Source: Akkermansiaceae bacterium (lineage in GTDB: Bacteria; Verrucomicrobiota; Verrucomicrobiia; Verrucomicrobiales; Akkermansiaceae). From it: a DNA stretch of 36,414 nucleotides. Below the pieces are notes generated by a model. It ran no database searches and was not told the DNA's origin. It worked only from the letters and a program-made list of their open reading frames with translations. Location of the stretch: NCBI GenBank assembly GCA_028822935.1, contig JAPKCM010000040.1, forward strand, positions 1 to 36,414, in the 5' to 3' direction. Numbering within the stretch: position 1 is the first letter of the stretch; the number at the start of each line of letters is the position of its first letter. A program made the position numbers and the translations under genes. Shown here piece after piece: positions 16,278 through 32,555 of this stretch.

Positions 16278-17201
16278 GTGGCACGCAAGCGTCTCAATCT
16301 CAAATCCCCTAGCACCAATCGTCGGATTTCCCGGTCGAAAAAGGGCGGGCTTGGGGGCACCCTGAAGCGAGTGGACCGCAAGGTTCAGGACATGCAGAAC
16401 ATGCGCACCGGAAGGCGCGCGGGAATGACAGCCCATGCCGCCATCGCAGGAACTGCCGAGGATCTTGGCTTCGACGACTTCCACCTCTCCTGGCCTAGCA
16501 GGATTTTACGTTGGTGTGCCGCCCTCCTCATCATGCCGCTGTGCTTCGTCACGGTATTGACGCTTTTCCAGCGCGTCGGTGACCCGGACTTCCTGCATCA
16601 CTTTTACAGGACAAAGGAATTTGTCTGCTTCACGGTGGGGATCGGCTTGATGCTTTCGTGGTTCTTCTCGGGACTTCTGGCTGAGAAATTCCTTTATCTC
16701 TACATTCTCGGTCACGAAATGACGCACGCCCTTTTCGTCTACTTCTGCCTAGGCCGTGTCAGCGAAATGAAAGTAAGCACCGATGGCGGCTACATCATGA
16801 CGAATAAGTCGAACCTGCTCATCGCGCTGTCACCCTACTTTGTCCCCTTCTGGTCCATCGTCCTTCTCGCTATCTACGGGCTTCTTTCCTCAACGACATC
16901 GATCCCTTATGGAGAGCAAGGTCTCATCGTCCTCCTCGGCGGCACTTGGTGTTTCCACATCGTCTGGACCCTCTGGATGATTCCAAAAGATCAGCCCGAC
17001 CTGAAAGAGCACGGCACCTTTTTCTCACTCATGGTGATCGCTTTCTTCAACCTCGTGCTCCTCAGCGGCATGGTATGCGCGGCGTCACCGGACCTCACCT
17101 GGAAGATCTTCTTCTTCAACTGGGCCAATATTTCCTGGGACTTGATCGACGCCGGCACGCAGTGGGTTTCGGCAGCCTTAAGACGCCTGCCCCGGATCTA
17201 G
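16278..17201 (+). CDS. Membrane protein with HExxH motif (M50-like metalloprotease)
   Basis: A 307-residue polytopic membrane protein starting at GTG 16278; no closer ATG exists before residue 39. Residues 1-75 form a very basic soluble N-terminal tail. Hydrophobic segments then lie at about 78-98, 115-134, 137-158, 178-200, 208-228 and 245-275. The third carries ILGHEMTHALFVYFCLGRVSEMKVS: H146-E147-x-x-H150 inside a membrane helix, followed by a small hydrophobic strand and GGY, as in site-2 (M50) intramembrane proteases, where the motif is usually HExGHxxxA. The second zinc ligand of M50 (NxxPxxxLDG) is not obvious; LIALSPYFVP occupies that region. It could be an atypical M50 protease or a relative that lost activity. 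It stands alone, divergent from the spermidine-synthase-like pair. Confidence 0.6.
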   Translation: MARKRLNLKSPSTNRRISRSKKGGLGGTLKRVDRKVQDMQNMRTGRRAGMTAHAAIAGTAEDLGFDDFHLSWPSRILRWCAALLIMPLCFVTVLTLFQRVGDPDFLHHFYRTKEFVCFTVGIGLMLSWFFSGLLAEKFLYLYILGHEMTHALFVYFCLGRVSEMKVSTDGGYIMTNKSNLLIALSPYFVPFWSIVLLAIYGLLSSTTSIPYGEQGLIVLLGGTWCFHIVWTLWMIPKDQPDLKEHGTFFSLMVIAFFNLVLLSGMVCAASPDLTWKIFFFNWANISWDLIDAGTQWVSAALRRLPRI

Positions 17202-17212
17202 CAAATCACAAA

Positions 17213-17242
17213 AAAGAGGGCAGTCCGAAGACCGCCCTCTTT
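17213..17242 (-). terminator. Strong intrinsic terminator for the hflKC-entericidin transcript
   Basis: On the minus strand a stem AAAGAGGGC(G)GTC / GAC(T)GCCCTCTTT encloses a stable TTCG tetraloop and runs into TTTTTT. It begins 22 bases after the stop of the entericidin-like gene. On the plus strand the same hairpin lacks a good T-tract, so it chiefly serves leftward transcription, although it may also insulate the membrane-protease gene ending at 17201. Confidence 0.85.
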
Positions 17243-17264
17243 GAGAAAATTGAAATTTGGAGAT

Positions 17265-17393
17265 TTAGCGCTGAGCCGCTTTCTCAAGGCTACCGCCGGC
17301 ATTTCCGAGATCACGCCCCAAACCTTGCATGGTCTGGCAGCTGGAAAGAGTGGCGAAGACTGCGGAAAGAAGAAGAATGGACAATTTTTTCAT
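17265..17393 (-). CDS. Entericidin-like small lipoprotein
   Basis: A 42-residue protein. It has a lysine start (MKKLS), a hydrophobic core (ILLLSAVFATL) and a lipobox LSSC with Cys19, so it should be lipidated after signal-peptidase II cleavage. The mature part (CQTMQGLGRDLGNAGGSLEKAAQR) has the entericidin pattern: C-T--G-G-D----G--I--AA. Enterobacterial entericidins A/B are tiny cell-envelope lipoproteins described as an antidote/toxin pair; the role in other phyla is unknown. It follows hflC by 82 bases on the same strand, and a strong TTCG-loop terminator follows it, so it is probably the last gene of the RG-protein-hflK-hflC transcript or has its own promoter. The tight fit of lipobox, length and terminator makes this a real gene. 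Confidence 0.85.
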   Translation of the reverse strand: MKKLSILLLSAVFATLSSCQTMQGLGRDLGNAGGSLEKAAQR

Positions 17394-17475
17394 GATCTGT
17401 TCGTGTTGGGGTTCGTGTCGTTGCTCAAACACCTACGGTTATCTTCTCCGAAGTGATGAGACGATCAAGAATCAT

Positions 17476-18438
17476 TTACTCGCCCAACGATTTCCCGTTC
17501 AAGAGACGAAAGAGTTCGGAGTCAGTCGATAGAATCAAGGTGGTATTCTCATCTAGAATTTTATCATAGGCTTCCAGCGTCTTGAAAAACTCGTAGAATT
17601 TCTCCTGCTCGGGGCTCCCACCATAAGCCTCAGCGTAGGTTCTGGTCGCTTCGGCATCTGATTTTCCGAGCACACTTTGGACCCGCTGATAGGCTTCAGA
17701 CTCGATCGTCTTCACCTCACGCTCCATGTCTCCCACAATTCGGGCCGCTCCACCAGCACCCTCGGAGCGATAACGTTCGGCGATTTGCTGACGTTCAGAG
17801 ATCATCCGCAGAAACATTTTCGGCTCATCCTGACTGGTGTAGTTCACCCGCTTGAAGCGAAGATCGAGGAGCTTAATGCCATAAGATTCCAGCTTTCCAC
17901 TTGCAGCATCAAAGACACTCTTCTCGATCACGGTCCGACCTTTGGAAATCGGGTCAAGAGCACTGGCTGATCCTAAAATCTCGCCAATTTCTTCTGGTTG
18001 CTGAGGCTTCCGATCTTTCGTGGTGCGAATGATCTCGATGAGGTCATTGTTGGCGACGGCATTGCGGGTTTCCGAGCCGAGAACGTCGTCGAGGCGCGAC
18101 TGGGCGGTTCTTTCGTCACTCAACTTTTGAAAATAGATCAGTGGCTTTGAAATCTCCCATCGGGCGAAGGTGTCCACCTTGATGTAAAGTTTGTCCCTGG
18201 TGGGCATTTGCGAACTGTTTCCATCCCAACTCAGAACGCGCTTCTCCATCACGTTCACTTTTTGGATAAAAGGGATCTTAAAATGAAGTCCTGCTTCCGT
18301 GATCGGATCCCCGACCGGCTTACCAAATTGAGTCAGAATAATCTGCTTACCCTCGCGCACGGTGTAAACCGTGCCGGATACGACAAGCAGAGTGGTTAAA
18401 ATGGCTAAGGCGATAAATATGGATAAAAACTTTTTCAT
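17476..18438 (-). CDS. hflC: HflC, modulator subunit of FtsH protease
   Basis: SPFH/prohibitin-family membrane protein of 320 residues. One N-terminal membrane anchor (about 4-24) is followed by the SPFH domain (about 25-200: TVREGKQIILTQFGKP, GLHFKIPFIQKVNVMEKRVLSWDG, VKRVNYTSQDEP-type segments) and a coiled-coil with ISERQQIAERYRSEGAGGAARI, which is typical of HflC. HflC and HflK assemble a large cage on the periplasmic side that encloses FtsH and tunes membrane-protein degradation. Its ATG overlaps the hflK stop by four bases (ATGA), so the two are coupled. ftsH is not in the window. Confidence 0.94.
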   Translation of the reverse strand: MKKFLSIFIALAILTTLLVVSGTVYTVREGKQIILTQFGKPVGDPITEAGLHFKIPFIQKVNVMEKRVLSWDGNSSQMPTRDKLYIKVDTFARWEISKPLIYFQKLSDERTAQSRLDDVLGSETRNAVANNDLIEIIRTTKDRKPQQPEEIGEILGSASALDPISKGRTVIEKSVFDAASGKLESYGIKLLDLRFKRVNYTSQDEPKMFLRMISERQQIAERYRSEGAGGAARIVGDMEREVKTIESEAYQRVQSVLGKSDAEATRTYAEAYGGSPEQEKFYEFFKTLEAYDKILDENTTLILSTDSELFRLLNGKSLGE

Positions 18439-19415
18439 TTCTTCAATGCGTTGTTGAGGTCGAGAAGGGGAACGGGAGAAGTTGATTTCTCATCCATGAT
18501 GACTTTGCTCTTCAATCGAGGGAGAACTTCGGTCATCCGTTCCAGGTAAAGACGCTGCCGCGTGATTTTCGGTGCTTTGGCGTATTCTTGGTAAAGAGCG
18601 AGGAAGCGCTCGGCATCACCGCTGGCTTCATTGACTCGCTGTTTGGCATCACCTTCGGCACGACTCACTTGTTGGTCAGCCAGTCCCTTAGCTTTTGGAA
18701 CCGCCTTGTTATACTGGCCTCTGGCTTCGTTAATCATCGTCTCACGCTCCTGTTGAGCCTGATTCACTTCGTTGAAGGACGATTGCACAAGCCGGGGCGG
18801 ATTGACGTTCTTGAGCTCCACGGAGGTGATTTGAAGACCCAAGCCATAGAGGCGAATCAACGCTTCCAGCTTCATGGAGACATCAGCCTCGATGGATTGT
18901 CGACCAATGGTAATCACTTCATCGACGGTGCGGTCCCCGACGACTTCACGCATCACCGACTCGGAAGCATCGCGCAAGGTGAATTCAGGGTCACGGACCC
19001 GAAAAAGATACTTTTCAGGATCATCAATGCGATACTGAACGACCCACTCGACAAGAGCAGCGTTCTTATCTCCGGTGATCATCGACTGCTCGTCAGCGTG
19101 CTCCTGCGGAACAGATTGGAAACGATTGGTCGAACCCTGGGTGCTAAAGCCGAACTCCATTTTGAGCTGACGCTTTACCGGAAGAATGAATTTTTGCTCC
19201 AAACCGAAGGGCATCTTGAAATGGAGTCCTGAGGTCGCTGTCCGCTCATATTTTCCAAATCGCAGAATAACCGCTTCGGAGTCTGCCGGGACGGTGTAAA
19301 ATGAAGAGAAAACTCCGATCAAGATAAGGAACGCCGGAACGAGAAGACCTACCTTGGATTTGAACTTTTTAATCAATGCCCCCGCGTTCTCGGGCGTAAT
19401 GTCGATGGTTGCCAT
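18435..19415 (-). CDS. hflK: HflK, modulator subunit of FtsH protease
   Basis: Partner of HflC in the FtsH-regulating complex, 326 residues. Start chosen at ATG 19413-19415, because a GAGG site lies about 10 bases upstream; the longer frame to 19439 adds eight unconserved residues. A single membrane helix (about residues 22-42) is followed by the SPFH domain (YTVPADSEAVILRFGKY, GLHFKMPFGLEQKFILPV, WVVQYRIDDPEKYLF, MREVVGDRTVDEVIT) and a coiled-coil (NEVNQAQQERETMINEARGQYNKAVPKAKG), a HflK hallmark. The Gly/Pro-rich N-terminal tail seen in Escherichia coli HflK is reduced to about 20 residues. It follows the RG-rich gene by 73 bases on the same strand. Confidence 0.93.
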   Translation of the reverse strand: MATIDITPENAGALIKKFKSKVGLLVPAFLILIGVFSSFYTVPADSEAVILRFGKYERTATSGLHFKMPFGLEQKFILPVKRQLKMEFGFSTQGSTNRFQSVPQEHADEQSMITGDKNAALVEWVVQYRIDDPEKYLFRVRDPEFTLRDASESVMREVVGDRTVDEVITIGRQSIEADVSMKLEALIRLYGLGLQITSVELKNVNPPRLVQSSFNEVNQAQQERETMINEARGQYNKAVPKAKGLADQQVSRAEGDAKQRVNEASGDAERFLALYQEYAKAPKITRQRLYLERMTEVLPRLKSKVIMDEKSTSPVPLLDLNNALKK

Positions 19416-19488
19416 GGAGTGATCCTCAGGCCAGACCAAGCTTCCCGCAATGAGAATATCTTCGCTATTTTGGAAGCACTCTATCGAG

Positions 19489-21333
19489 CTACTCGGATTC
19501 GGGTTCTTTATGAGCCTTTTCAGCGGCTGGTGCTTCCTCTACAGGGGCAACGAAAGGAACGGCTTCAGCGACTGGAGCCTCTGGCTCGGGTGCTGGCACC
19601 TCCGCCTTTTTCTCCTCTGCTGGCTGCTCTGCCACTGGCTTTTCCTCGGCCACCGGCTTTTCTTCTGCTGCGGGCTCCTCTTTGGAAACTGCTTTCTTTT
19701 TGGAAGCGGGCTTTGCCTCGTTCTTGGCAGAAGGCTTTCCGCCGTCTCCCGATTTGGCGAGATGAAGACTGGTGTCAGAAAGAAGGATGACATGGCCTTG
19801 GTTCAACAACCAATGAAGGTCGTGATACCATTCTCCTTTCACCACGTCGCTCGCATCTTCCGGGAGAAATTTCTTCCAAAGATCCTGCAGTTTCTTGCCC
19901 GAATTCTTACCGAGGTAATCGATGATTGCTTGAGGACGTTCGGCGAGCTGGGTCTTCGCAGAAACAGCGTGAGGCCTTGAAGGACCCACCTTCAGTTTTT
20001 TTTCCCACTTAAAGACGGCAACGTGACGACCGGAAAGCTGACGACAGACAATCGGCATTAAATTGGCCGGGTAGCGTTTCTCTTCGACTACTGAATTCTT
20101 CAGAAGAGCCAGAAGACCCGATGAAAGGTTCTTACCCTGAATATCACCCATGACCCAAGCACGCTTGCTTTCTTCAATAGTCGATTCAAAATGATTCTCG
20201 AGAAAATGCTGCTCCACCTCACTAGCAGTTTTGAGAAGCACAATTTCTTCTTCTGGAGCATCAGGAGATTCGACAGCCTCCGCCTCGACGGAAGCTTCTT
20301 TAGGTGCGGCTTCTTCCACGGGGGCGGGAGAATCTTCTGCCACCTCATCTATTACTTCCGCCTCGGGAGCTTCCTCGCTTGTCGAGGTTTCTTCGCCCGT
20401 CGCGACTTCCTCGGCTGGAGCTGGAGCTACCTCCTCAGCGGGAGTCTCTTCTGGCGCTTTTTCGTCAGCGACTTCTTCCGCTTCAGGTTCAGCAACCTTC
20501 CACTGAGTCGTAATCTTCATGCTTTCGAGCCATGCTTCAACGGCTTCCTCGCCTCGCTCCATCACGATCCGCGATTTGAAGCGCTCAAGCGGCATGTTCG
20601 CAAACTGCTCGCGGTGGAGCGCAACCACGTTCTGTTGGTAAGCGTGGTAATTCGGAGGGCCTAGAAGCTTTCCGGTCAATCCACACTTAGCGACCGCTTG
20701 GAAACTTCCACTCGGTGCCTCCCCTTCGATCTGCACTTCTTCGTAAAACTTTTTCCGCCAGTCAGCCCGCCAAAGATGACTCAACGCCTCTTTCTTGGTA
20801 AGCCAAAGCGAGTTGTCTTCGCGACAGCGGAAGAAGGGATTTTCTTTGTGCTCAAAAGTTACCCGAAAACGACCACGGCCCTGCAAGAGAACCTTCGCGA
20901 GATCGAAAACCGAAAAGGTACGACCCGTCTGCGTCACTTCCTTGGCCAACAGATCAAGACTCTCTTCACTGGGCATGAAGCTCACCTTGACTCCTTCGGG
21001 AAGGGCTACTTCCTCACGCTGAGGACCACGTTCATCATGACGATCACGACCGCCTTGAAACTTACCACGATTTCCACCGCCGTCGCGTCGATCTCCACGA
21101 CCACCTCCACGTTGACCACCTCCACGCTGGTCACCACGTTCACCGCCACCGCTGCGTCGATCACCTCGTCCACCACCTCCACGGCGGTCTCGAGATTCAG
21201 AGCGATCACCCTGGTCTTTGTATTTTTTGACGGACTTGGATTCCGCTGGATCACGCGCCCAAGCAGGGCCAAAATTCAGTCCGGATAAATCAAGAGCGCC
21301 ATCGCTCTCGGAAGGTTGAGGGTCGTTACTCAT
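19489..21333 (-). CDS. RG-rich, modular protein of unknown function
   Basis: A 614-residue protein that I do not recognise as a named family. Start at ATG 21331-21333; six further codons upstream look non-coding. Modules: short acidic/aromatic head (1-30, LNFGPAWARDP); Arg-Gly tract (about 48-105) of RGG/RGD-like repeats; globular region A (about 110-280) with many basic and aromatic residues, including FRCREDNSLWLTKKEALSHLWRA, CGLTGKLLGPPNYHAYQ and REQFANMPLERFKSR; Ala/Pro/Glu-rich linker (280-362); globular region B (about 363-530) ending in a helix-hairpin resembling a winged helix (DLHWLLNQGHVILLSDTSLHLAK); and a Lys/Glu/Pro/Ala-rich tail (530-614). RGG tracts and a winged-helix-like end suggest RNA or nucleic-acid binding. 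It heads the hflKC run. No signal peptide or membrane helix, so it is cytosolic. Confidence 0.8.
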   Translation of the reverse strand: MSNDPQPSESDGALDLSGLNFGPAWARDPAESKSVKKYKDQGDRSESRDRRGGGGRGDRRSGGGERGDQRGGGQRGGGRGDRRDGGGNRGKFQGGRDRHDERGPQREEVALPEGVKVSFMPSEESLDLLAKEVTQTGRTFSVFDLAKVLLQGRGRFRVTFEHKENPFFRCREDNSLWLTKKEALSHLWRADWRKKFYEEVQIEGEAPSGSFQAVAKCGLTGKLLGPPNYHAYQQNVVALHREQFANMPLERFKSRIVMERGEEAVEAWLESMKITTQWKVAEPEAEEVADEKAPEETPAEEVAPAPAEEVATGEETSTSEEAPEAEVIDEVAEDSPAPVEEAAPKEASVEAEAVESPDAPEEEIVLLKTASEVEQHFLENHFESTIEESKRAWVMGDIQGKNLSSGLLALLKNSVVEEKRYPANLMPIVCRQLSGRHVAVFKWEKKLKVGPSRPHAVSAKTQLAERPQAIIDYLGKNSGKKLQDLWKKFLPEDASDVVKGEWYHDLHWLLNQGHVILLSDTSLHLAKSGDGGKPSAKNEAKPASKKKAVSKEEPAAEEKPVAEEKPVAEQPAEEKKAEVPAPEPEAPVAEAVPFVAPVEEAPAAEKAHKEPESE

Positions 21334-21387
21334 GGTGAGGGAACAAATCAATCATATCGCGCGGATCAAATAAAGCATCATTGCTCC

Positions 21388-22404
21388 TTATCCCATGGGA
21401 TAAAGATGATCCTTACTTACCTGATCCAGCTGCTTAATCGTGCTTTCATCGAGAACGAGTCCTGCTGCTTTGACGATCGGCTTTAGTTGCTCCGCTTTCG
21501 AGACGCCAACAATCGTGGATGCGACATAGTCATGTTGCTTACTCCAGGCCGTCGCCAGAGTCGTGACATCAATCCCGATTTCCTCTGCGATTTCCATAAA
21601 GCGCCGCGTTGAAGCGATCGCCTTTTCATTCACAAAGCGTGCCGCCATGGCCTTCTGTCGCAGTCCCCCATTGTTGATGTAGTCCGTAAACCGAGCCCCC
21701 TCAGGCACACCCTCGTTATATTTTCCCGTAAGGACTCCACCCGCCAGAGGGCTGTAGGGAAGTAAACTGACCTTCTCCCGACGAAGGCATTCAGCAAGTT
21801 CATCTTCATCCCGACGATTGTTCAGCGAAAAATTATTCTGCACCGTATCGATGCGCGTGAGCCCTTCCAGCTCACTCGTCCAAAGACTCTTCATCACGCC
21901 ATAAGGGTTGTCGTTACTCAGACCGATCGCCCGGACCTTTCCTTCCTTCACGAATTCATCAAGCACCTCCAGCGTATCCGCTGCTCTCATCCCGTGATCC
22001 GGCCAATGAATTTGGTAAAGGTCGAGGTAGTCCGTCCCGAGCCGACGCAAGCTCCCCTCGAGCGCCTTCCGAAGATGCACCCGATCCAGCGCGGCTTTGC
22101 CATGACGAATCGGCGGACAAAACCATCCGTGCGCTGCCCCGGCGATCTTCGACCCGATGATCACCGATTCGCGCGGCCGATCTGCCAGCCAAGCACCCAG
22201 CCATTCCTCGGTTAAGCCAGTAAGCTCTTCCGAAGGCGGGACAGGGTAGACTTCAGCGGTATCAAAAAAATCGATCCCGGCCTCCACCGCCGCATTCATA
22301 ATCTTAAAACTTTCCTCCCGGTCTGACTGCGTCCCAAAAGTCATCGTGCCCATGCAGATCTCGCTCACCACGATTCCGCTCTGCCCAAGTCGCCTTTTTT
22401 CCAT
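21388..22404 (-). CDS. Aldo/keto reductase (Tas-like)
   Basis: An NADPH-dependent oxidoreductase of the AKR superfamily, 338 residues from ATG 22402-22404; the longer frame to 22533 adds unconserved residues. TIM-barrel catalytic tetrad: Asp and Tyr in IDFFDTAEVYP, Lys in IGSKIAG, and His in YQIHWPDHG. The start MEKRRLGQSGIVVSEICMGTMTFG is the classic AKR N-terminus, and GVSKAEQLKPIVKA is the C-terminal cofactor-binding segment. It resembles Tas-type AKRs, whose substrates in the cell are generally unknown. Transcribed leftward 54 bases ahead of the RG-rich gene, so co-transcription is possible. The 210-base divergent gap to the sulfatase gene holds no feature I can support. Confidence 0.9.
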   Translation of the reverse strand: MEKRRLGQSGIVVSEICMGTMTFGTQSDREESFKIMNAAVEAGIDFFDTAEVYPVPPSEELTGLTEEWLGAWLADRPRESVIIGSKIAGAAHGWFCPPIRHGKAALDRVHLRKALEGSLRRLGTDYLDLYQIHWPDHGMRAADTLEVLDEFVKEGKVRAIGLSNDNPYGVMKSLWTSELEGLTRIDTVQNNFSLNNRRDEDELAECLRREKVSLLPYSPLAGGVLTGKYNEGVPEGARFTDYINNGGLRQKAMAARFVNEKAIASTRRFMEIAEEIGIDVTTLATAWSKQHDYVASTIVGVSKAEQLKPIVKAAGLVLDESTIKQLDQVSKDHLYPMG

Positions 22405-22614
22405 GGCGTGATGATCCCCATATTGCTCTGATTTTGCAAGACCGGGGCTTGACGATAAATGGTGCTTTAAAACAAAGGTGGCAAAGAAAAAGGGAGGCCT
22501 TGGCCGAGGTTTGGCCAGCAAGCAGCGCCCCAACGAGCGCCATCGTTGAAAAATATGGGAGCTTCAAAGCAATGTGGGTGTATTAAAAGGGGTAACGTTC
22601 AATAAAGCGCAATC

Positions 22615-24015
22615 ATGAAGCCCCGCCCAAAAGAAGTTTTCAGCTATCTCCTCGTCCTCACAATCATTCTCACCCCCGTCTGCGCCTCCGCTCAGTCAAA
22701 ACGTACCAATATTGTCCTCTTTTACGCCGACGACCTCGGCTACACCGACCTCTCCTGCCAGGGTTCCAGCTACTACAAGACGCCTCACATCGACCGGATC
22801 GGAAAGGAAGGTATGACCTTCACCAATGCTTACGCCGCAGCGGCAAACTGCGCCCCATCCCGGGCATCGCTCATGAGTGGGCTCTACACCCCGCGCCATG
22901 GCGTGTTCACCGTTTCCAACTCCGCCCGCGGGAAAGCAAAGCATCGGAAACTGATCCCGATCAAAAACACCGAACTTCTCGCGCCCAAATTCACCACCCT
23001 CGCCGAAGCCCTCAAATCAGCCGGCTACCAAACCTGCGTCGCCGGAAAATGGCACGTCTCCGGCGACCCGACCAAGGACGGATTCGACACCAATTTCGGA
23101 GGCAACAAATCCGGCCACCCCAGATCCTATTTTTCCCCCTATAAAAACCCCCAGCTCAAAGACGGACCCAAAGGAGAGCACCTTCCCGAAAGGTTGGGCC
23201 GTGAGGTTTCCAACTGGATTTCCAATCACAAAGAGGATCCCTTCTTCGTCTACCTCCCCTTTTACTCCGTCCACACTCCCATCCAGGCCCGCGACGATCT
23301 CGCAAAGAAATATCCCGAAAAGCCGAAAACCGAGCCCCATCATAATCCAAAGTATGCCGCGATGATCGAGGCCATGGATCTCGCCGTCGGCCAGGTCCTC
23401 CAAACCCTCGAGGAACAAAATCTCAGCGACAACACTCTCGTTATTTTCACCTCCGACAACGGACCACACGGTAACATCTCCCGCGCCACCCCGCTCCGAG
23501 GGGTGAAGGGCATGTATTACGAAGGAGGCATTCGGGAGCCCTTTCTTGCGAAGCTTCCCGGCGTAATCAAAGCCGGCAGCACCAACGACACTCCCATCCA
23601 TCAAGTCGACCTCTACCCCACCCTTCTCTCCTTCGCTAAAGCCACCGGCCCGAAGCAACTCGATGGCATCGATCTCACTCCCGCTCTCAAAGGCGAATCA
23701 CTTCCTGACCGCAACCTCTACTGGCACTTCCCCGCCTACCTCCAGGGCTACGGCTTGGATGGAGGCTCAGCTTCGCCCTTCTTCCGCACCACGCCTTGCG
23801 GGGTCATTCGCGATGGAGACTGGAAGCTCATTCAGTATTTCGAAGACAACACTCTGGAACTCTACAACCTCAGGGAGGACCTCTCCGAGACCACCAATCT
23901 TGCCGAAAAGAATCCCGAGAAAACACAAGCCCTTCTCAAGAAGCTGCAGGCGTGGCAGACAAAAGTGAGCGCGCCCATTCCCACGAAAGCCAATCCCGCT
24001 TATCGAAAGGAATAG
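22615..24015 (+). CDS. Secreted formylglycine sulfatase (CAPSR type)
   Basis: A 466-residue arylsulfatase-family (alkaline-phosphatase fold) enzyme that hydrolyses sulfate esters, likely from sulfated glycans. Signal peptide at about 1-26 (ends CASAQ). Metal-binding Asp pair D39-D40 in YADDLGYTDLSC. Cys79 in CAPSR is converted to formylglycine; the motif is then extended by ASLMSG. Further hallmarks: GKWH (about 144-147), YLPFYSVHTP, the second metal site FTSDNGPHG with N281-type residues, and the C-terminal beta-domain with DGDWKLIQYFED and ELYNLREDLSETTNLA. The formylglycine-generating enzyme is not in the window. Convergent with the second sulfatase at 24153, with a serine-protease remnant in the gap. 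Confidence 0.92.
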   Translation: MKPRPKEVFSYLLVLTIILTPVCASAQSKRTNIVLFYADDLGYTDLSCQGSSYYKTPHIDRIGKEGMTFTNAYAAAANCAPSRASLMSGLYTPRHGVFTVSNSARGKAKHRKLIPIKNTELLAPKFTTLAEALKSAGYQTCVAGKWHVSGDPTKDGFDTNFGGNKSGHPRSYFSPYKNPQLKDGPKGEHLPERLGREVSNWISNHKEDPFFVYLPFYSVHTPIQARDDLAKKYPEKPKTEPHHNPKYAAMIEAMDLAVGQVLQTLEEQNLSDNTLVIFTSDNGPHGNISRATPLRGVKGMYYEGGIREPFLAKLPGVIKAGSTNDTPIHQVDLYPTLLSFAKATGPKQLDGIDLTPALKGESLPDRNLYWHFPAYLQGYGLDGGSASPFFRTTPCGVIRDGDWKLIQYFEDNTLELYNLREDLSETTNLAEKNPEKTQALLKKLQAWQTKVSAPIPTKANPAYRKE

Positions 24016-24024
24016 CCGGTAGCA

Positions 24025-24148
24025 CATTACCTTCCTGATCCACGGAACCAAGGACGACACCCGGGCATAATTGCCTCGGTTTCCATACTTGGGATTCGAG
24101 CCGCTGGCAAAAGGAGGAAGACCACGAAAAATAGCCACCTCATTGACG
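24025..24148 (-). pseudogene. Remnant of a trypsin-like serine protease C-terminus
   Basis: In the gap between the two sulfatase genes, the minus strand reads in one frame as ...LPPFASGSNPKYGNRGNY, then ARVSSLVPWIRKVM. This is the pattern of the last 30 residues of chymotrypsin-fold proteases (G...GYPGVYxRVSxFLxWI). About 40 residues survive; no catalytic Ser or other part remains here, and the frame continues into antisense of the first sulfatase without meaning. I infer a deletion remnant left between the sulfatase genes. The match rests on about 20 residues, so chance similarity is possible. Confidence 0.4.
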
Positions 24149-24152
24149 GCAC

Positions 24153-25562
24153 TTACTTGGCCCAATCCGCAAGCGGAGCTTTTCCGGATTCGCGATTTTC
24201 TGCGCCCTTGATCTTCTTCAAACTATCGCCTAGTTCCACGCGCTTTTGATCCGCCAGCGCTTGCATCTTCGCTAGCACCACCGGGTGTTTCGCTTTGACA
24301 TCGGTCCGCTCTCCGCGATCCACGTCCATATCGTAGAGCCCCAGCTGCACTTGCTCGACCCCATACTTTCCGGTCTTCCCGTCATTTCCCTGATTGCTCC
24401 GTCCATCGCGCGCTTTATGCGGAAACTGAAGCTTCCATTTCCCCATGCGCATCGACTCCAAGTCATTGCCGCGATAGTAGAAAAAGTAAGCCTCCTGCAC
24501 CGGCTCGCTTTGCTCCCCCACAATGACCTTCCAGGCGTCCTTTCCATCGATCTCTTTCTTGGGAAGCGGTGCATCAACCAATCCCGCAATCGTAGGAAGA
24601 AGATCAATCGTCATCAAAGGAGTTTTTACCACACTACCCGCTTTGATCTTCCCCGGAAAACGCATCACGCAAGGAACACGAACTCCGCCTTCCCAACTCG
24701 TTCCCTTGCTCCCCCGAAGATCTCCTACGTTACCCGCATGGTTCCCAAAGACCATCCACGGGCCGTTGTCGCTCGTAAAAATAACGAAGGTATTGTCCGC
24801 GACTCCTTTCTTCTCGAGCGCCCTGAGCACCTCTCCTGTCGACCAGTCGATTTCTTGAATGACATCTCCAAAAATCCCCTTCTCCGATGACCCTTTCCGA
24901 TCATCCGAAACATAAAGCGGCACATGCGGCTGGGGATGCGCAAGGTAGAGAAAGAAAGGCGCGTCCTTTGTTTTCTCGATAAAACTCACCGCCCGCTTGG
25001 TCAGAGTATTCGTCATCTCGCTCTGATCAAGTTCCCGGCGGATGATCTTGCCATTATCGAAAACCGGAAGATCAGGATAGCCTTTCACAAATTTGATCGG
25101 ACCACGCGGCCACATGTCATTCGAATAAGGATAACCATGATACTCGTCAAATCCCTGATTCACCGGCAGAAATTTTTCCTGATAGCCGAGGTGCCATTTT
25201 CCAAAGGCCGCTGTGGCGTAACCTTGCCCCTTGAGAAGCTCGGCAATCGTCGTTTCATCGGGATTTAGACCGTTTTTACTCCGGTGCGAAAGGGCCCCGC
25301 TAATCCCAACCCGATTCGAGTAACATCCCGTCATGAGGGCCGCCCGCGAAGCCGAGCACACCGCCTGCGCCACGTAGAAATCGGTGAATTTGGCCCCGTC
25401 TTTCGCAATTGAGTCAATATTCGGCGTTTTGTAACCTTCAGCTCCAAAGCAGCCAATGTCGCCATAACCAAGGTCATCGCAAAAAATAATGACCACATTG
25501 GGCTTTTCCGCCGCTTTTACGAAAACGGAAAACGAGAGAAAGATCGCCAAGATGTGATTCAT
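24153..25562 (-). CDS. Secreted formylglycine sulfatase (CSASR type)
   Basis: A second, clearly different sulfatase of 469 residues. Start at ATG 25560-25562, giving a signal peptide MNHILAIFLSFSVFVKA; the longer frame to 25652 lacks one. Active-site motif C69-S-A-S-R followed by AALMTGCY, i.e. the CxAxR variant, with metal-binding D29-D30 in FCDDLGYGDIGC. GKWHLGY, YLAHPQPHVPL, FTSDNGPW and the C-terminal LYDMDVDRGERTDV segment complete the family picture. Such sulfatases are typical of planctomycetes and verrucomicrobia degrading sulfated algal polysaccharides; the exact substrate cannot be assigned. It is divergent from the TPR-redoxin gene, with a 61-base gap that must hold both promoters. 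Confidence 0.92.
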   Translation of the reverse strand: MNHILAIFLSFSVFVKAAEKPNVVIIFCDDLGYGDIGCFGAEGYKTPNIDSIAKDGAKFTDFYVAQAVCSASRAALMTGCYSNRVGISGALSHRSKNGLNPDETTIAELLKGQGYATAAFGKWHLGYQEKFLPVNQGFDEYHGYPYSNDMWPRGPIKFVKGYPDLPVFDNGKIIRRELDQSEMTNTLTKRAVSFIEKTKDAPFFLYLAHPQPHVPLYVSDDRKGSSEKGIFGDVIQEIDWSTGEVLRALEKKGVADNTFVIFTSDNGPWMVFGNHAGNVGDLRGSKGTSWEGGVRVPCVMRFPGKIKAGSVVKTPLMTIDLLPTIAGLVDAPLPKKEIDGKDAWKVIVGEQSEPVQEAYFFYYRGNDLESMRMGKWKLQFPHKARDGRSNQGNDGKTGKYGVEQVQLGLYDMDVDRGERTDVKAKHPVVLAKMQALADQKRVELGDSLKKIKGAENRESGKAPLADWAK

Positions 25563-25623
25563 TTGGAAAGTCCACCACAACCGACCCGTAACAGCAATCT
25601 CCAACCCCGTCCCTGACATCGAT

Positions 25624-27897
25624 ATGCGCTCCGCCATCCTCACTCTCCTCATTGGATTCTCACCCCTCCTCTCTCTGGCTCAAGAGACGCCTGAAACAGC
25701 AAGCGATGATCCCTTGGCCGGCCATTCCCACCAGGGCCACGCCTTTAATGAGGGCCCACGCCAGGCTGGACCTCTGATGGAAAACACGGGGCTCGTTCAC
25801 CTTCCCATCACGACCTCCTGGGACAAGGGACAGGCTTATTTCGACCAGGGAATCGGTCAGCTCCACGGCTTCTGGTATTATGAAGCCGAGCGCTCTTTCC
25901 GCCAAATTCTCGCTCATGACCCAAACTGTGTCATGGCCTACCTCGGGCTCACTTTGGCCAATTGGGAAAACGAAAAACGCGCCAAAACTTTCCTCGAGAA
26001 GGGAATCAAACTTCAAGAGAAGGCCGCTCTCACCGACCACGAAAAAGCCTATTTCGAAGCCCACAAAAAACTCTTCAGCGAAGAACCCAAGGACATCAAG
26101 AAGCGCCGTGTCAATTTCGTCCGCGATCTCGAAGACATCGTCCTCAACTTCCCCAATGACCTGGAGGCCAAAGCATTCCTCGTCTGCCGCCGCTGGCAGC
26201 TCAACCGCAAGGGAATTCAGATCCAGAGTTATGTTGGCCTCGACGCCATTCTTGAGCAAATCTTTGCCAAGTCCCCTCATCACCCAGCCCACCACTTTGC
26301 CATCCACCTCTGGGACAACCGCAATCACGCCCAGGCCCTCGACTCCGCGGCCAAGCTCGGGACCACCGCTCCCGGCATCGCCCACATGTGGCACATGCCC
26401 GGTCATATTTATTCCAAGGCCAAGCGCTTCCACGACGCCGCCTGGCAACAAGCCGCCTCCGCCTCGGTCGATCACGCACATATGCAGAAGAACTACCTCC
26501 TGCCCGATGAGATCCACAACTACGCCCACAACAACCAGTGGCTCGCGCAAAACTACACCTACCTCGGGGACGCCACCGCCGCAGTTGAAATGGCGCAATC
26601 TCTCCTCGCCAACCCACGTCATCCCCGCCTCAACACCGCCACCAAAGGTGGTTCCTCCAGCCGTTACGGACGCAGTGAGCTCATCAAGATCCTCGAGACT
26701 TTCGAACTCTGGCCTCAAATCATCGCCCTTTCGAAAACCCAGTGGCTCGAAGCACTTGATAAAGCAGACGATGACCGCTCGCGCCTCCGCCTCATCGGAA
26801 TCGCTCACTTCCATCTTCAGAAGAAAGACGAGCTCAACGTGACCATCGGCCAGCTCGACGCGTTCCACAAAAAAGCAGTCGCCCAGCAAAAAGAAGACGA
26901 AGACAAAGCCCGCGAAAAAGCGACCAAGGAAAAGAAAAACGAAAAGGACCTCAAGAAAGCCGTCACCGATGCCGGCAAGAATGCCAAGAAAAGCGCGGAT
27001 GCCCTCGCCAAAATCCTCGGCGAACTTCGAGGTTGCCTTGCCGAACTCAATGGCGACAAAGAGGCCGCCAAAAAATCGCTCAGCCACGTCAATAATGGCA
27101 CCGTAAAGATGCGACGTCAGCTCGCCCTCGGCGATCTCGAAGAAGCCCGCAAAGCTGCTGAAAAGAAACTCAGCGGCGACGATAAAAAAACCGTCGAACT
27201 CGCCCAAGGCATCGAGACCTTTTACCGCTGTCAAAAAGAAGACGCCAGCAAGGTAAAGGAAGCCTTCGAAAAACTGCGCGTCATTTCCTCCGAGATCGCA
27301 ATCACCACTCCTCCCTTCGCCCGCCTTGCCCCGATCGCCAAGAAACTCGGCTACCCCGAGGACTGGCGTCTCGCCCACGTCCCAGCCGAAGATCTCCTCC
27401 CCCGACCTAAACTTGATTCACTCGGCCCTGTCCATTGGACCCCGCCCGCCGCCAAGCCCTTCAGCCTCCCGGACCAAAATAAGAAGTCGATCTCACTCTC
27501 CGACTACCAAGGCAAGCCCTTCATCCTCGTCTTCTATCTCGGCGCCGGCTGCCTCCACTGCACCGAGCAACTCACCGCCATGGCCGACCGTTATCCCGAG
27601 TTCGAAAAGGCCAAGCTCCCCATCCTCGCCATCTCCACCGATAACGTCGCCGACCTTAAGATGTCACAGGACAACTACGAAAAAGGAACCATCCCCTTTC
27701 CGCTCATCTCCGATGAAAAAAAGGACGTCTTCAAAGCCTACACCGCCCACGATGACTTCGAGAACCAGCCCCTCCACGGCACCTTCGTGATCGACGGAAA
27801 AGGCCGCGTCCTCTGGACCGACATCTCTGCCGACCCCTTCATGGACCTCGATTTCCTCATCAAGGAAGCCAACCGCCTCCTGGAACTCCATCCCTAG
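25624..27897 (+). CDS. Secreted TPR protein with C-terminal redoxin domain
   Basis: A 757-residue exported protein. Signal peptide about 1-20 (LLIGFSPLLSLAQ). A His-rich patch follows (GHSHQGHAF, about 32-40). TPR-like helical repeats run from about 60 to 400: the first (YFDQGIGQLHGFWYYEAERSFRQILAHDPNC) matches a family of TPR proteins with FDQGL...GF..EA motifs. Next is a Lys/Glu-rich coiled coil (about 400-460) and another helical array. The last ~150 residues are an AhpC/TSA-type redoxin (FSLPDQNKKSISLSDYQGK, FYLGAGCLHCTEQL with C643 and C646, GTFVIDGKGRVLWTDI). The CLHC motif suits thiol oxidoreductase or peroxiredoxin-like activity outside the cytosol. Substrates are unknown. Divergent from the CSASR sulfatase. 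Confidence 0.8.
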   Translation: MRSAILTLLIGFSPLLSLAQETPETASDDPLAGHSHQGHAFNEGPRQAGPLMENTGLVHLPITTSWDKGQAYFDQGIGQLHGFWYYEAERSFRQILAHDPNCVMAYLGLTLANWENEKRAKTFLEKGIKLQEKAALTDHEKAYFEAHKKLFSEEPKDIKKRRVNFVRDLEDIVLNFPNDLEAKAFLVCRRWQLNRKGIQIQSYVGLDAILEQIFAKSPHHPAHHFAIHLWDNRNHAQALDSAAKLGTTAPGIAHMWHMPGHIYSKAKRFHDAAWQQAASASVDHAHMQKNYLLPDEIHNYAHNNQWLAQNYTYLGDATAAVEMAQSLLANPRHPRLNTATKGGSSSRYGRSELIKILETFELWPQIIALSKTQWLEALDKADDDRSRLRLIGIAHFHLQKKDELNVTIGQLDAFHKKAVAQQKEDEDKAREKATKEKKNEKDLKKAVTDAGKNAKKSADALAKILGELRGCLAELNGDKEAAKKSLSHVNNGTVKMRRQLALGDLEEARKAAEKKLSGDDKKTVELAQGIETFYRCQKEDASKVKEAFEKLRVISSEIAITTPPFARLAPIAKKLGYPEDWRLAHVPAEDLLPRPKLDSLGPVHWTPPAAKPFSLPDQNKKSISLSDYQGKPFILVFYLGAGCLHCTEQLTAMADRYPEFEKAKLPILAISTDNVADLKMSQDNYEKGTIPFPLISDEKKDVFKAYTAHDDFENQPLHGTFVIDGKGRVLWTDISADPFMDLDFLIKEANRLLELHP

Positions 27898-27979
27898 GTC
27901 AGGCATCCTTCCTGACTTCCGACCAAATATACCATAACCTCTTCGAAAGGCGGATCGTTTCCGCTGTCATCAATTAGTT

Positions 27980-29434
27980 ATGTTTGGAAAAATATTGCTT
28001 GCTTTCCTCCTTTCGACATCGGTGTGGGCACAACAACTTTCTATAAGCCCCTCTCCTTCAGAAGCTCACCTAAAGTGGTCCCGCACCTTCCCCGAAAATT
28101 TGGGCGTCGCATCTCGAATCCACTCGCGGATTCTCAGCTCAACGAATCTCATAAATTGGGTTCAAGAAGATTTTCTCACCTTCGAAGAAGCTCTCGGAAA
28201 TGGCGAATCAAGCTTCATCGCCCCCCTCAATGGCCCCGCCCGCTTCTATCGCTTGGAAGAATTCTACTCCTACGTCCATCGCGACGCCCCTTCAGCCGCT
28301 CCTACCCTCTACAACCAGCAGTTCCTCAACTCATCTTCCCTCTCCGAACAGAAGCCACCCTTGGAGTCCGATGACTCTGCCAGCGACCCCGCCTGTCTCG
28401 ACAGCATCCCCTGGGATCCGACCACAGCCAGTTTCTTCGCTGCATACAACACCTCCCCGGAAGACCACAACGCCGCGCTTCCACCTAACGACCCCGAGCG
28501 CCGCGTCACTGATTTCAGCTTAAACGAAAACTAACAGGCTGCCTTTGAAAAAAATGGTTTCGTCGTTAGTCCCCGCGTTGCCTCATCTTTTGATGATTGG
28601 GGTCGCATTGTTGAGTCCTACGCCCCTGTCGATTTCTACTACTCCATCTGGACCGATGATCTTCACGTCTTCATCACTGCCGACTCCGTCCTAGAAGCCT
28701 GACACCAGACCTTCAACAGCCTGCTCGAAGAAGTCGAAGAACTGGTCCTTTATCCTGCCTTGAGAGCCTTCCTCGATGATCGAATCGACCCAGAATTTCA
28801 AGAATGGAAAACAACATGGCAGGACAGCCAAGAGCCCGGAGCCGACACGGTGAGAGAGACCCTGCAAGATCTCGATCTCTATCTCGGAACGGCCTTTCGT
28901 TTGGTTCGAGAAAGTGATCCTGGAGAGCCAACCGACGATGAGATCAGCCCCGCACACTGGCAGCAATCCGTTGTAGATGCTACTGACACGCTCAAGAGAA
29001 ATCTCTACGGAGACGTGGGAAGATTAGAAGACATGACGCTCTATAAGCCACGCGGCCACTACACCAACTCCTCGCTGCTTAAAGGCTATTTCCAAACAGT
29101 GGTTTGGCTCAGTCAATCCCAGTTCCATCTTACCAACGAAAGTTCAAGTTCTCAGTGGGATCGCGAATTGCGCGCTGCCATTCTCATGACGCTCATCGTT
29201 CGAGATTCCGGAGCAGTTCTCCACGAAGGCGTCGGCCGTGCACAGTTTATGCTCGTTGCCGTAAAACATCCCGACGGCTCAATCTGAGCCTACGGGGGCC
29301 CCGTCATGAGCCATCATGAATTCACTAAACCTCACGGTGTCCGCATGTCCGACGAAGAGTGGAAAGCACAAATGGCACAAGAAGGTGAACCAGCCCCTGC
29401 CGATTGGAAACGGGACTTCCTGATCACGGAATAA
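27980..29434 (+). pseudogene. DUF3160-family secreted protein with three in-frame stops
   Basis: A single reading frame of 485 codons holds three internal stops: TAA 28532-28534, TGA 28700-28702 and TGA 29285-29287, with a terminal TAA at 29432-29434. There is no frameshift. The first part has a signal peptide (1-18, VWAQ) and a module ending RFYRL, as in the gene at 12668. The rest shows DUF3160 landmarks: FYYSIWTDDLHVFITADSVL, YKPRGHYTNSSLLKGYF, HEGVG, then after the last stop YGGPVMSHHEF and MSDEEWKAQM. Normal members are 650-800 residues, so a middle portion (between about 29210 and 29230) also seems deleted. Both TGA codons sit where Trp is plausible (TGG to TGA). Most likely a recent pseudogene. 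Confidence 0.7.
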
Positions 29435-29439
29435 GATCC

Positions 29440-29971
29440 CTATCGACGACGGCGGAAAATTCCGGAGGCTCCAAGCGCCAGGAACGCTACTGAACTCGGT
29501 TCCGGCACCGCCGTAAATTCAGCGGCCACAAAAACTTCAACCTGCTCGAGCGTCGGTGAGAGTGTCAAACGCTCCTACATTAGTCGAATAATTCGCCTGA
29601 TCAAATGCGCCAACCCCAGCACCAGTTCGTGTCGCAAAGCCATCGGTATAATCCCACGTTTCTCCGTCTCCATTAACACCGGGGTCACCATAGGTGTCGA
29701 AGACCGAACTCATGTTAAACAACTCAATCGTATCGTCCCCGTTGATGTTTGCGGCACCATGCTGCAACAACACAAAATTCTGCACGAAGTTGTTGGCGAA
29801 AAAATCGAAGGAAGCGGTATTCCCCGCGATCACAATAACATCCCCCGTCACAGCAGTTCCCCCTGACAAGGTAAACTCTTCCCCATCGGTCCCGCCACCA
29901 TTGTTGGCACTGCCTATTCCCCAGGTCGAAAGATCAGTGCCAAACCAAGCTTCACTCCCCCCGTTAAGCAC
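29440..29971 (-). pseudogene. Frameshifted PEP-CTERM secreted protein fragment
   Basis: Two minus-strand frames form one broken gene. The larger (29537-29971, from GTG) resembles extracellular beta-rich proteins with INGDDTIELF, GDPGVNGDGETWDY and TDGFATR segments, as in lamin-tail-like or nuclease-associated domains. The C-terminal frame (29440 to about 29575) encodes a textbook PEP-CTERM sorting signal: VPEPSSVAFLALGASGIFRRRR interrupted here only by my quoting limit; key parts are VPEPSS, a hydrophobic helix and RRRR before TAG 29440-29442. The two overlap near 29540-29575 but differ in frame, so one or two bases were lost or gained. There is no signal peptide at the N-terminus and a stop lies just upstream, so the start is missing too. 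The gene runs tail to tail with the DUF3160 pseudogene. Confidence 0.6.
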
Positions 29972-30094
29972 TCCACGCCTCCAGAAACCTTACCACTTCA
30001 GAGACATTTATTGTTAAGCTAACTTCACCGAACAAACATTTATAAGACATTGCCCACCAAAGTCTCACGAAATACTTCGAGAACCTTGCAAAAC

Positions 30095-31282
30095 TTAGAT
30101 CTCTCCCCTGATCCCCAAGTCCACCCTCCTCCCTCCCCCATCCAAACTCTTCCTTCCCGCCTCCAGGATCGCGGTCACCTCCCTCGTCTGCTGCACGGTC
30201 GCCAGCTCAGGATCCCCACCTTTTACCGCTTCTAGAAAAGTAGCGATGCTCACATAGCCATAAGCTCCCTGCCCCGCGAAACCTCCCTGCCCATCCGGCA
30301 AATAACGCATAAAGAGCGGGTTCGGCGTGGAGTATCCCGCATCATCGGTCGCCACTTCATAGCCTCGGTGCGCTTGATCCACGCGCACTTCTCCGTGATG
30401 ACTCAAGCTACTAAAGCGCTGCTGCGAATGCACCTCGGCCTTCGGCGCCGACCACGCCGAGGTATAAACGGCCGTCCCCCGGTTCCCGGAGTCGAAATGC
30501 TCCCAATCAACCATCAGCGTGATCGAATCCTCCGTCTCGATCCCCATTCCTTGAGCCACTCCATTGGAAGCCGACGCCACCACTGACACCGGCCTTGCAA
30601 CTCTCTCCATCGCCCAGACATGAAAATCAATGTGGTGCGCATTGAGGTAGTAACTGACGTCACTCGATTTCCCGGCCCACCTGCGAAAACTCTCCAGTTG
30701 GGACTTCGGCTGGCTCATATAGGATTGAAAGTAAGAAAAATCTCCGAGATCGCGAATCCGTTGCCGGGCATCGGCATAGATCGGGTCCCATCGCTTGTGC
30801 ACTTCCATCGCAATTAAGACCTCCTGTTCCTCCGCAATCTCAATCAGCGCGTCATGTTCCACGAGCGTCTTCACGATGGGCTTCGCCACCAAAACATGAA
30901 GCCCACGTTGCGCCGCTGCCTCAGCCATTTCAAAGTGGAGATCATCGGGAGTGAAGACGAGCACCGCATCCCCCGGAGAGAGTTCCGCCATCGCTGTCTT
31001 CCACGCCTCTGGATCATGCTCTCCGTCATTGGGGAACGACTGGAAGCTCACATCCATCTGATAGCGATCCCCAATCACCCGCTGTAAGTGCGCGCGCATT
31101 GCCGGAAATTTTTCACCGTTGGTTCCCGCAAAAAGTAAATCTCCGATCAGTCCGCGCTGCCGCAAATCGAAAAGCGTCAGTCCAACAACCCCCGCCCCTT
31201 TATCCGAGGAGCTCTCAGCACCGTTCACAAACCCGGTGACATACTCCCCCGTTCCTAGGACCAAGACGTTTGGCAATTTCAT
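30095..31282 (-). CDS. Gfo/Idh/MocA-family oxidoreductase
   Basis: NAD(P)-dependent sugar or cyclitol oxidoreductase family, 395 residues from ATG 31280-31282. Rossmann N-terminus LVLGTGEYVTGFVNG, the VFTPDDLHFEMAEAAAQRGLHVL segment and VAKPIV, which replaces the usual EKP with AKP, so the lysine survives. The C-terminal half contains HHIDFHVWAM, with the conserved His of the active site. The substrate is unknown. A perfect AGGAGG ribosome-binding site lies at 31297-31302, which is 14 bases from this ATG; an in-frame CTG at 31286-31288 would have an 8-base spacing. The region is tidy and conserved, unlike the broken genes on both sides. Confidence 0.85.
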   Translation of the reverse strand: MKLPNVLVLGTGEYVTGFVNGAESSSDKGAGVVGLTLFDLRQRGLIGDLLFAGTNGEKFPAMRAHLQRVIGDRYQMDVSFQSFPNDGEHDPEAWKTAMAELSPGDAVLVFTPDDLHFEMAEAAAQRGLHVLVAKPIVKTLVEHDALIEIAEEQEVLIAMEVHKRWDPIYADARQRIRDLGDFSYFQSYMSQPKSQLESFRRWAGKSSDVSYYLNAHHIDFHVWAMERVARPVSVVASASNGVAQGMGIETEDSITLMVDWEHFDSGNRGTAVYTSAWSAPKAEVHSQQRFSSLSHHGEVRVDQAHRGYEVATDDAGYSTPNPLFMRYLPDGQGGFAGQGAYGYVSIATFLEAVKGGDPELATVQQTREVTAILEAGRKSLDGGGRRVDLGIRGEI

Positions 31283-31429
31283 CGCCAGAAGTGTCACCTC
31301 CTAAATCAGATTCGGTAGAAAAAAATCGGCCTCCGGGAAAAGAATCTCACTTTTTTGACACTGCCGGTTCGAAAGCGCGATGAAGCAAGTGAAGGAAAAA
31401 ACATCCGAAACACTCAATTCACCGTATCA

Positions 31430-32330: not shown

Positions 32331-32555
32331 ATGACTTCCGTTGTCACCATCCCTTCCGAAATCGTATTTGCCTTCTTTGCTCTCATCACTCTGGTCATTG
32401 TCATGCGGCTCATGTTAGGACTTCTTATGATCTCAGGCGTGTATCTCACCAATGATTGTCTCATCGAAGAAGCACCCAAACTCTCGGTAGAGGACGAAAA
32501 GACCGCTCTCAAAAAACGCCTCACGGAACTCGAAGAACAACATCCATCATCATGA
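32331..32555 (+). CDS. Small membrane protein of unknown function (trio gene 1)
   Basis: A 74-residue protein. A long hydrophobic stretch (about 9-40: VFAFFALITLVIVMRLMLGLLMISGVYL) suggests one long or two short membrane helices, followed by a charged helical tail (VEDEKTALKKRLTELEEQ) likely to form a coiled coil. I recognise no family. Its TGA stop overlaps the ATG of the next gene (ATGA at 32552-32555), so translation is coupled. Its function probably depends on that partner. Confidence 0.6.
   Translation: MTSVVTIPSEIVFAFFALITLVIVMRLMLGLLMISGVYLTNDCLIEEAPKLSVEDEKTALKKRLTELEEQHPSS

Follow-up and report, generated by a model that had tools for sequence, protein, structure and literature searches.

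A probable DUF3160 pseudogene with a decayed neighbour in an Akkermansiaceae genome

Pseudogenes of bacteria in general show nonsense codons, large internal deletions and decayed neighbours. All three are shared by a gene remnant at positions 27980-29434 of a 36,414-nucleotide stretch of DNA from an Akkermansiaceae bacterium (contig JAPKCM010000040.1; the whole analysed stretch is called the window below), which departs from bacterial pseudogenes only in a minor respect, the absence of a frameshift. Its similarity is to the DUF3160 family (PF11369), for which a table entry in PMC4158269 reads 'Secreted enzyme present in bacteria and eukaryotes'. The same genome harbors an intact DUF3160 paralogue (L001, G000:C126:16386-18494) with an uninterrupted frame of 891 aa that matches the profile at E = 4.7e-134. 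Both copies have a long N-terminal part followed by the PF11369 domain and are 49.4% identical over 470 aligned residues; unlike the paralogue, the remnant carries three stops and lacks profile positions from about 210 to 564. We consider it an ordinary pseudogene whose decay was late in relation to its divergence from this paralogue, with a probability of roughly 0.9.

Structure of the DUF3160 remnant

A preliminary description of this DNA had reported a DUF3160-like gene with three in-frame stops and no frameshift, and the frame indeed has this form. It comprises 484 codons plus the terminal TAA. The following features were located:

27980..29434, plus strand: DUF3160 gene remnant, a single frame throughout from start ATG to terminal TAA
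27980..28531, plus strand: N-terminal part, lying almost entirely before the DUF3160 profile match
28526..29209, plus strand: match to DUF3160 profile positions 2-209 (E = 2.1e-31, 109.7 bits)
28532..28534, plus strand: stop 1, TAA; Glu in 9/9 intact rows
28700..28702, plus strand: stop 2, TGA; Trp (TGG) in 9/9 intact rows
29207..29407, plus strand: match to DUF3160 profile positions 565-631 (E = 3.1e-17, 63.8 bits)
29212..29213, plus strand: junction left by the in-frame deletion; the alignment fixes it to within about one codon
29285..29287, plus strand: stop 3, TGA; Cys (TGT or TGC) in 7/8 intact rows with data, Ala in 1

The similarity to PF11369 is far above chance (E = 2.1e-31 and 3.1e-17), and on both sides of the deletion the score (109.7 and 63.8 bits) exceeds the curated cut-off of 25 bits, so that the proposed family identity holds. 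When the four stop-free pieces are searched separately, the third and the fourth match DUF3160 alone (1.4e-23 and 6.5e-9) and the first two match no Pfam family. The full-length domain of 632 positions is not present, as positions from about 210 to 564 are absent. Judged from its sequence, the window copy is a DUF3160 remnant and not a functional family member: its frame is homologous to intact genes and carries disabling changes, namely three stops and a deletion of 414 codons. The start of the frame looks like a signal peptide by eye, and the ancestral protein was probably secreted.

An alignment to intact DUF3160 relatives, which the preliminary description had proposed as a check, places the three stops at Glu, Trp and Cys columns. 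It contains nine intact rows, with the near-identical L001 and L005 both counted and with L010 being a partial gene cut by its contig. Both TGAs had been thought to stand where the family has Trp; this is true of the one at 28700 (Trp in 9/9), but not of the one at 29285 (Cys in 7/8, Ala in 1). A wider alignment of 19 intact rows, from which L005, L010 and L016 were left out and in which nine rows (L143-L151) represent the longest open frame per locus, has 10 Trp, 8 Phe or Tyr and 1 Leu at the stop-2 column. Here Cys occupies the stop-3 column in 7 rows and the next column in 8 more, an offset that may be an alignment slip.

The internal in-frame deletion is real and larger than the preliminary description conveyed. 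Relative to the intact paralogue, 414 codons are missing between RDSG and AVLHEG, and eight complete intact rows carry 379-433 codons at this segment. Roughly half of the gene length is retained, and 90 of the 151 columns invariant over those eight rows (L001 and L005 again both counted) are gone with the deleted part, from which we infer that the remnant cannot form a whole DUF3160 domain. A search of the genome returned the two remnant matches and the intact copy only, and thus no DUF3160 match to the lost segment elsewhere in the assembly. The octamer at the junction, TCCGGAGC, occurs twice in the window, where a mean of 2.5 is expected by chance, and a repeat-mediated mechanism cannot be shown from it.

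DUF3160 matches were found in 12 of 58 relatives and in 14 of 387 phylum genomes (both counts include the own genome), and among the matches listed only that of the window has internal stops. Among 260 family genomes, the most similar long match of the 194-aa piece is 49% identical, terminal pieces of only some 25-30 residues reach 67-72%, and no intact copy is close enough to date the loss. A first scan of named genomes gave no match, and a second gave six relatives, the best at 49%. A structure prediction of the intact protein from a five-row alignment had a mean pLDDT of 34.6 and was unusable.

Some further observations concern these relatives. Two other DUF3160 matches are fragmentary and perhaps represent further remnants of the family: G437:C1:1977401-1977734, covering profile positions 154-185 plus 544-629, and L014 (G005:C53:8670-8777), covering 596-631. 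The 3549-base contig of L005 (G004:C94) matches G000:C126 (L070) at 99.6% identity from end to end, although the two genomes' redoxin genes share only 63% identity. This contig is either mis-binned or the result of a very recent transfer.

The neighbouring remnant and the synteny breakpoint

Adjoining the DUF3160 remnant on the opposite strand, there is a second remnant, of a PEP-CTERM-type protein:

29546..29935, minus strand: body of the second remnant in the first frame; start and N-terminus missing
29440..29547, minus strand: its C-terminal part in another frame, with a tail (PEPSS...FRRRR) that we take to be a PEP-CTERM-like motif

The stretch 29989-29540 on the minus strand matches genus proteins with up to 73% identity. 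We compared it with nine relatives (L110-L118, out of the loci L110-L120), whose open frames of 226-277 residues align to it only from residue 64-112 onward. Three of the nine match the tail as a separate piece in another frame (29547-29443 or within), and for the remaining six a single alignment runs on in the first frame. This second gene is thus decayed as well, and very probably frameshifted near 29547.

The gene order changes at this point. Seven of the eight window genes from 16278 to 27897 match contig C265 of genome G007 at 71-84% identity; the eighth (24153-25652) has only a 35% match in G007, located where the homologue of its neighbour lies. No DUF3160 match exists in G007, and beyond its redoxin gene none of the tested window genes was matched. 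On the other side, the gene at 30095-31297 has relatives of about 66-76% identity in many genus genomes and a weak one in G007 (3.1e-7). The surroundings of two of its homologues (L065 and L073) gave no other matches to tested window genes, and around a third (L074) there is a 39% match to 354-1556 and weak ones (25-32%) to 22615-24015 and 24153-25652. Relative to the genomes compared, both remnants accordingly lie at a synteny breakpoint. A further homologue of this oxidoreductase gene, L059 (G023:C14:174122-175282), contains one internal TAA.

Decay of the gene and its timing

The preliminary description had called the decay very recent. This stands in a relative sense only, based on the pattern of codon positions and on the invariant residues; none of the 260 family genomes gave an intact copy close enough to date the loss. 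On its terminal branch, the remnant shows a ratio of 0.243 between the lengths for positions 1+2 and position 3, within the range of 0.128-0.356 seen for eight intact genes, although third positions are near saturation and the test is therefore coarse. It was run without L005 (near-identical to L001), the stop columns and columns with fewer than eight rows, and L011-L013 and L016 were not used. The remnant retains 55 of 61 columns that are invariant in the others (90%); when each intact row is left out in turn, six genus rows retain 92-100% and two distant rows 64-68%. Because the branch ratio lies in the intact range and these residues are kept, the data fit a gene that would have been under selection for most of its separate history and lost late relative to the divergence from the paralogue. 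A nine-row protein tree leaves the remnant without a firm placement beside either the L001 type or the L006-L009 type, the node in question having a support of 51.

We propose the following course of events. A DUF3160 protein of about 900 residues, homologous to the genome's remaining intact copy, would no longer have been needed, and under relaxed selection three nonsense substitutions would have followed, together with a single internal deletion of about 1.2 kb that kept the frame. Function would have been lost, with at most an N-terminal fragment of 184 residues made from the gene's own start. Since the PEP-CTERM-type neighbour has decayed as well, the region of 27.9-30.0 kb between two intact genes may be regarded as a local graveyard at a synteny breakpoint.

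As evidence for a pseudogene we count the DUF3160 matches flanking the deletion, the stops, the second remnant, the intact paralogue and the synteny break. Some points weigh on the other side. Three nonsense changes and a deletion in frame, without a frameshift, are mildly unusual for neutral decay, a judgement and not a formal test. Of the 4239 single-base changes that the retained columns of the paralogue allow, 174 create a stop, and so three nonsense changes would accompany some seventy neutral changes, with a wide error; over that many, some small indels would be expected. The 90% of invariant residues kept is slightly below the 92-100% of intact genus rows, as some neutral drift would give. 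Finally, 260 family genomes offer no close intact orthologue that shows the state before decay.

Alternative readings and the TGA at the cysteine column

It is conceivable that the gene is truncated but useful, its N-terminal part of 184 aa (27980-28531, the sole part readable from the original ATG) being retained as a short secreted protein. The DUF3160 profile match starts at 28526 and has stop 1 (28532) as its third codon, which puts this stop almost exactly where the domain begins. However, the N-terminal part is not specially conserved: its identity to L001 is 45.5% over 178 aligned residues, compared with 44.9% for the same part between the intact L001 and L008, and the other parts of the remnant are 48-71% identical to L001. 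We regard such a retained fragment as improbable.

Slightly less probable still is a former selenoprotein, in which a DUF3160 variant once read the TGA at 29285 as selenocysteine, before the remaining stops and the deletion put the gene out of action. The Sec reading of stop 3 was nevertheless worth testing, because the genome has Sec machinery and the genus has redoxin-like genes with an internal TGA. A tRNA-Sec match (G000:C155:1453-1541, L098) scores 53.9 bits against a gathering score of 47, and ARAGORN calls it SeC with anticodon TCA; selB (C125:33844-35022, L121; profile positions 2-357 of 581 only) and selA (C126:126878-128224, L129) are matched over their cut-offs. The genome thus appears to decode selenocysteine, although the tRNA-Sec model is not fully specific, as 5 of 14 control genomes also exceed its cut-off and all 14 are matched at a loose threshold. 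In the closest relatives stop 3 corresponds to a conserved Cys (7/8 near rows). Of the 174 single-base routes by which the retained columns of the own paralogue can reach a stop, only 2 begin at a Cys codon, and under random nonsense a stop at this residue would be a coincidence of roughly 3 x 2/174, further reduced by a hairpin that follows it.

This hairpin, 3' of stop 3, satisfies the bacterial SECIS rule as worded in a figure legend of PMC13188914 and applied through our own implementation (spacing 22, loop 4, stem 6, -10.7 kcal/mol). None of the eight intact rows with data at this column reaches -7.5 kcal/mol; three have a weaker hairpin and five have none (L001 and L005 both counted). 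The rule passes 10 of 13 presumed positive controls, which are peroxiredoxin-like genes of the genus, and it is not passed at stop 2 (-4.3 kcal/mol). However, 412 of the 1311 TGA triplets of the window pass it as well, folding the 51 nt that follow stop 3 gives no improvement over shuffled sequences (z -0.47), and no Rfam match lies within 27900-30100.

The 13 redoxin-like genes from 13 genus genomes (L130-L142) carry one internal TGA each, all in the context FFYPxAxTxxU. Comparison with the PxxxTxxU motif, as it appears in PMC13188914, places this TGA at the peroxidatic position. A rule-type hairpin follows with its loop starting 23-24 nt past the TGA, and these genes are apparently selenoproteins. 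They resemble the remnant in having a rule-type hairpin downstream of a TGA, which in the remnant stands at a Cys column, and in the presence of Sec machinery; they differ in that their TGA lies in an otherwise open domain, whereas the remnant has further stops and a deletion. The own genome has no peroxiredoxin-like match with an internal TGA, and no clear selenoprotein candidate was found around its tRNA-Sec, selB and selA genes.

Several findings argue against a fossil Sec codon. Within the listed DUF3160 matches of the 58 relatives and 387 phylum genomes, no copy other than that of the window has an internal stop, and Cys stands at the stop-3 column in just 7 of the 19 intact rows of the wider set, with 8 more having it one column later. 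Selenocysteine would explain one of four lesions. The frame of a selenoprotein should be otherwise open, and here it is broken by the TAA at 28532, the TGA at a Trp column and the deletion. We know of no selenoprotein in DUF3160. Such a codon is therefore improbable, since selenoproteins are rare and the three other lesions need decay anyway.

An assembly or base-calling artefact is very unlikely. The source is a draft assembly of 156 contigs, but four separate lesions and a decayed neighbour would have to be explained, and a collapse of copies is implausible since the paralogue is only 49% identical.

Least likely of all is a gene that is still alive through readthrough or recoding of its stops (TGA read as Trp or Sec), because no recoding covers the TAA at a Glu column, the TGA at a Trp column and the loss of 414 codons of domain core together, even though the frame is kept throughout, one TGA stands at a Trp column and Sec machinery is present. 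The two TGAs also replace different residues. The preference for decay over readthrough in the preliminary description is thus supported: much of the domain is gone, the stops stand at different residues and the neighbour has decayed too. A general recoding of TGA to Trp was rejected, since TGA terminates 9 of 57 long ORFs in five stretches of the genome, the release factor 2 gene prfB is present and the other listed matches of this genome have no internal stops. The TGA at 32553-32555, cited earlier as a normal stop, does terminate a frame, a short one. TGA stops are rare in the window (1 of 25 long ORFs, or 2 of 27 in a cruder list) compared with four other stretches of the genome (8 of 32), probably by chance.

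As the pseudogene that we take it to be, the remnant is of little importance beyond indicating local gene loss where the lineage still has another DUF3160 copy that is intact. It also gives reason for caution: even where a genome decodes Sec, plain decay can leave a TGA at a Cys column. Should stop 3 prove to be a fossil Sec codon, redox chemistry would be indicated for this family of unknown function.
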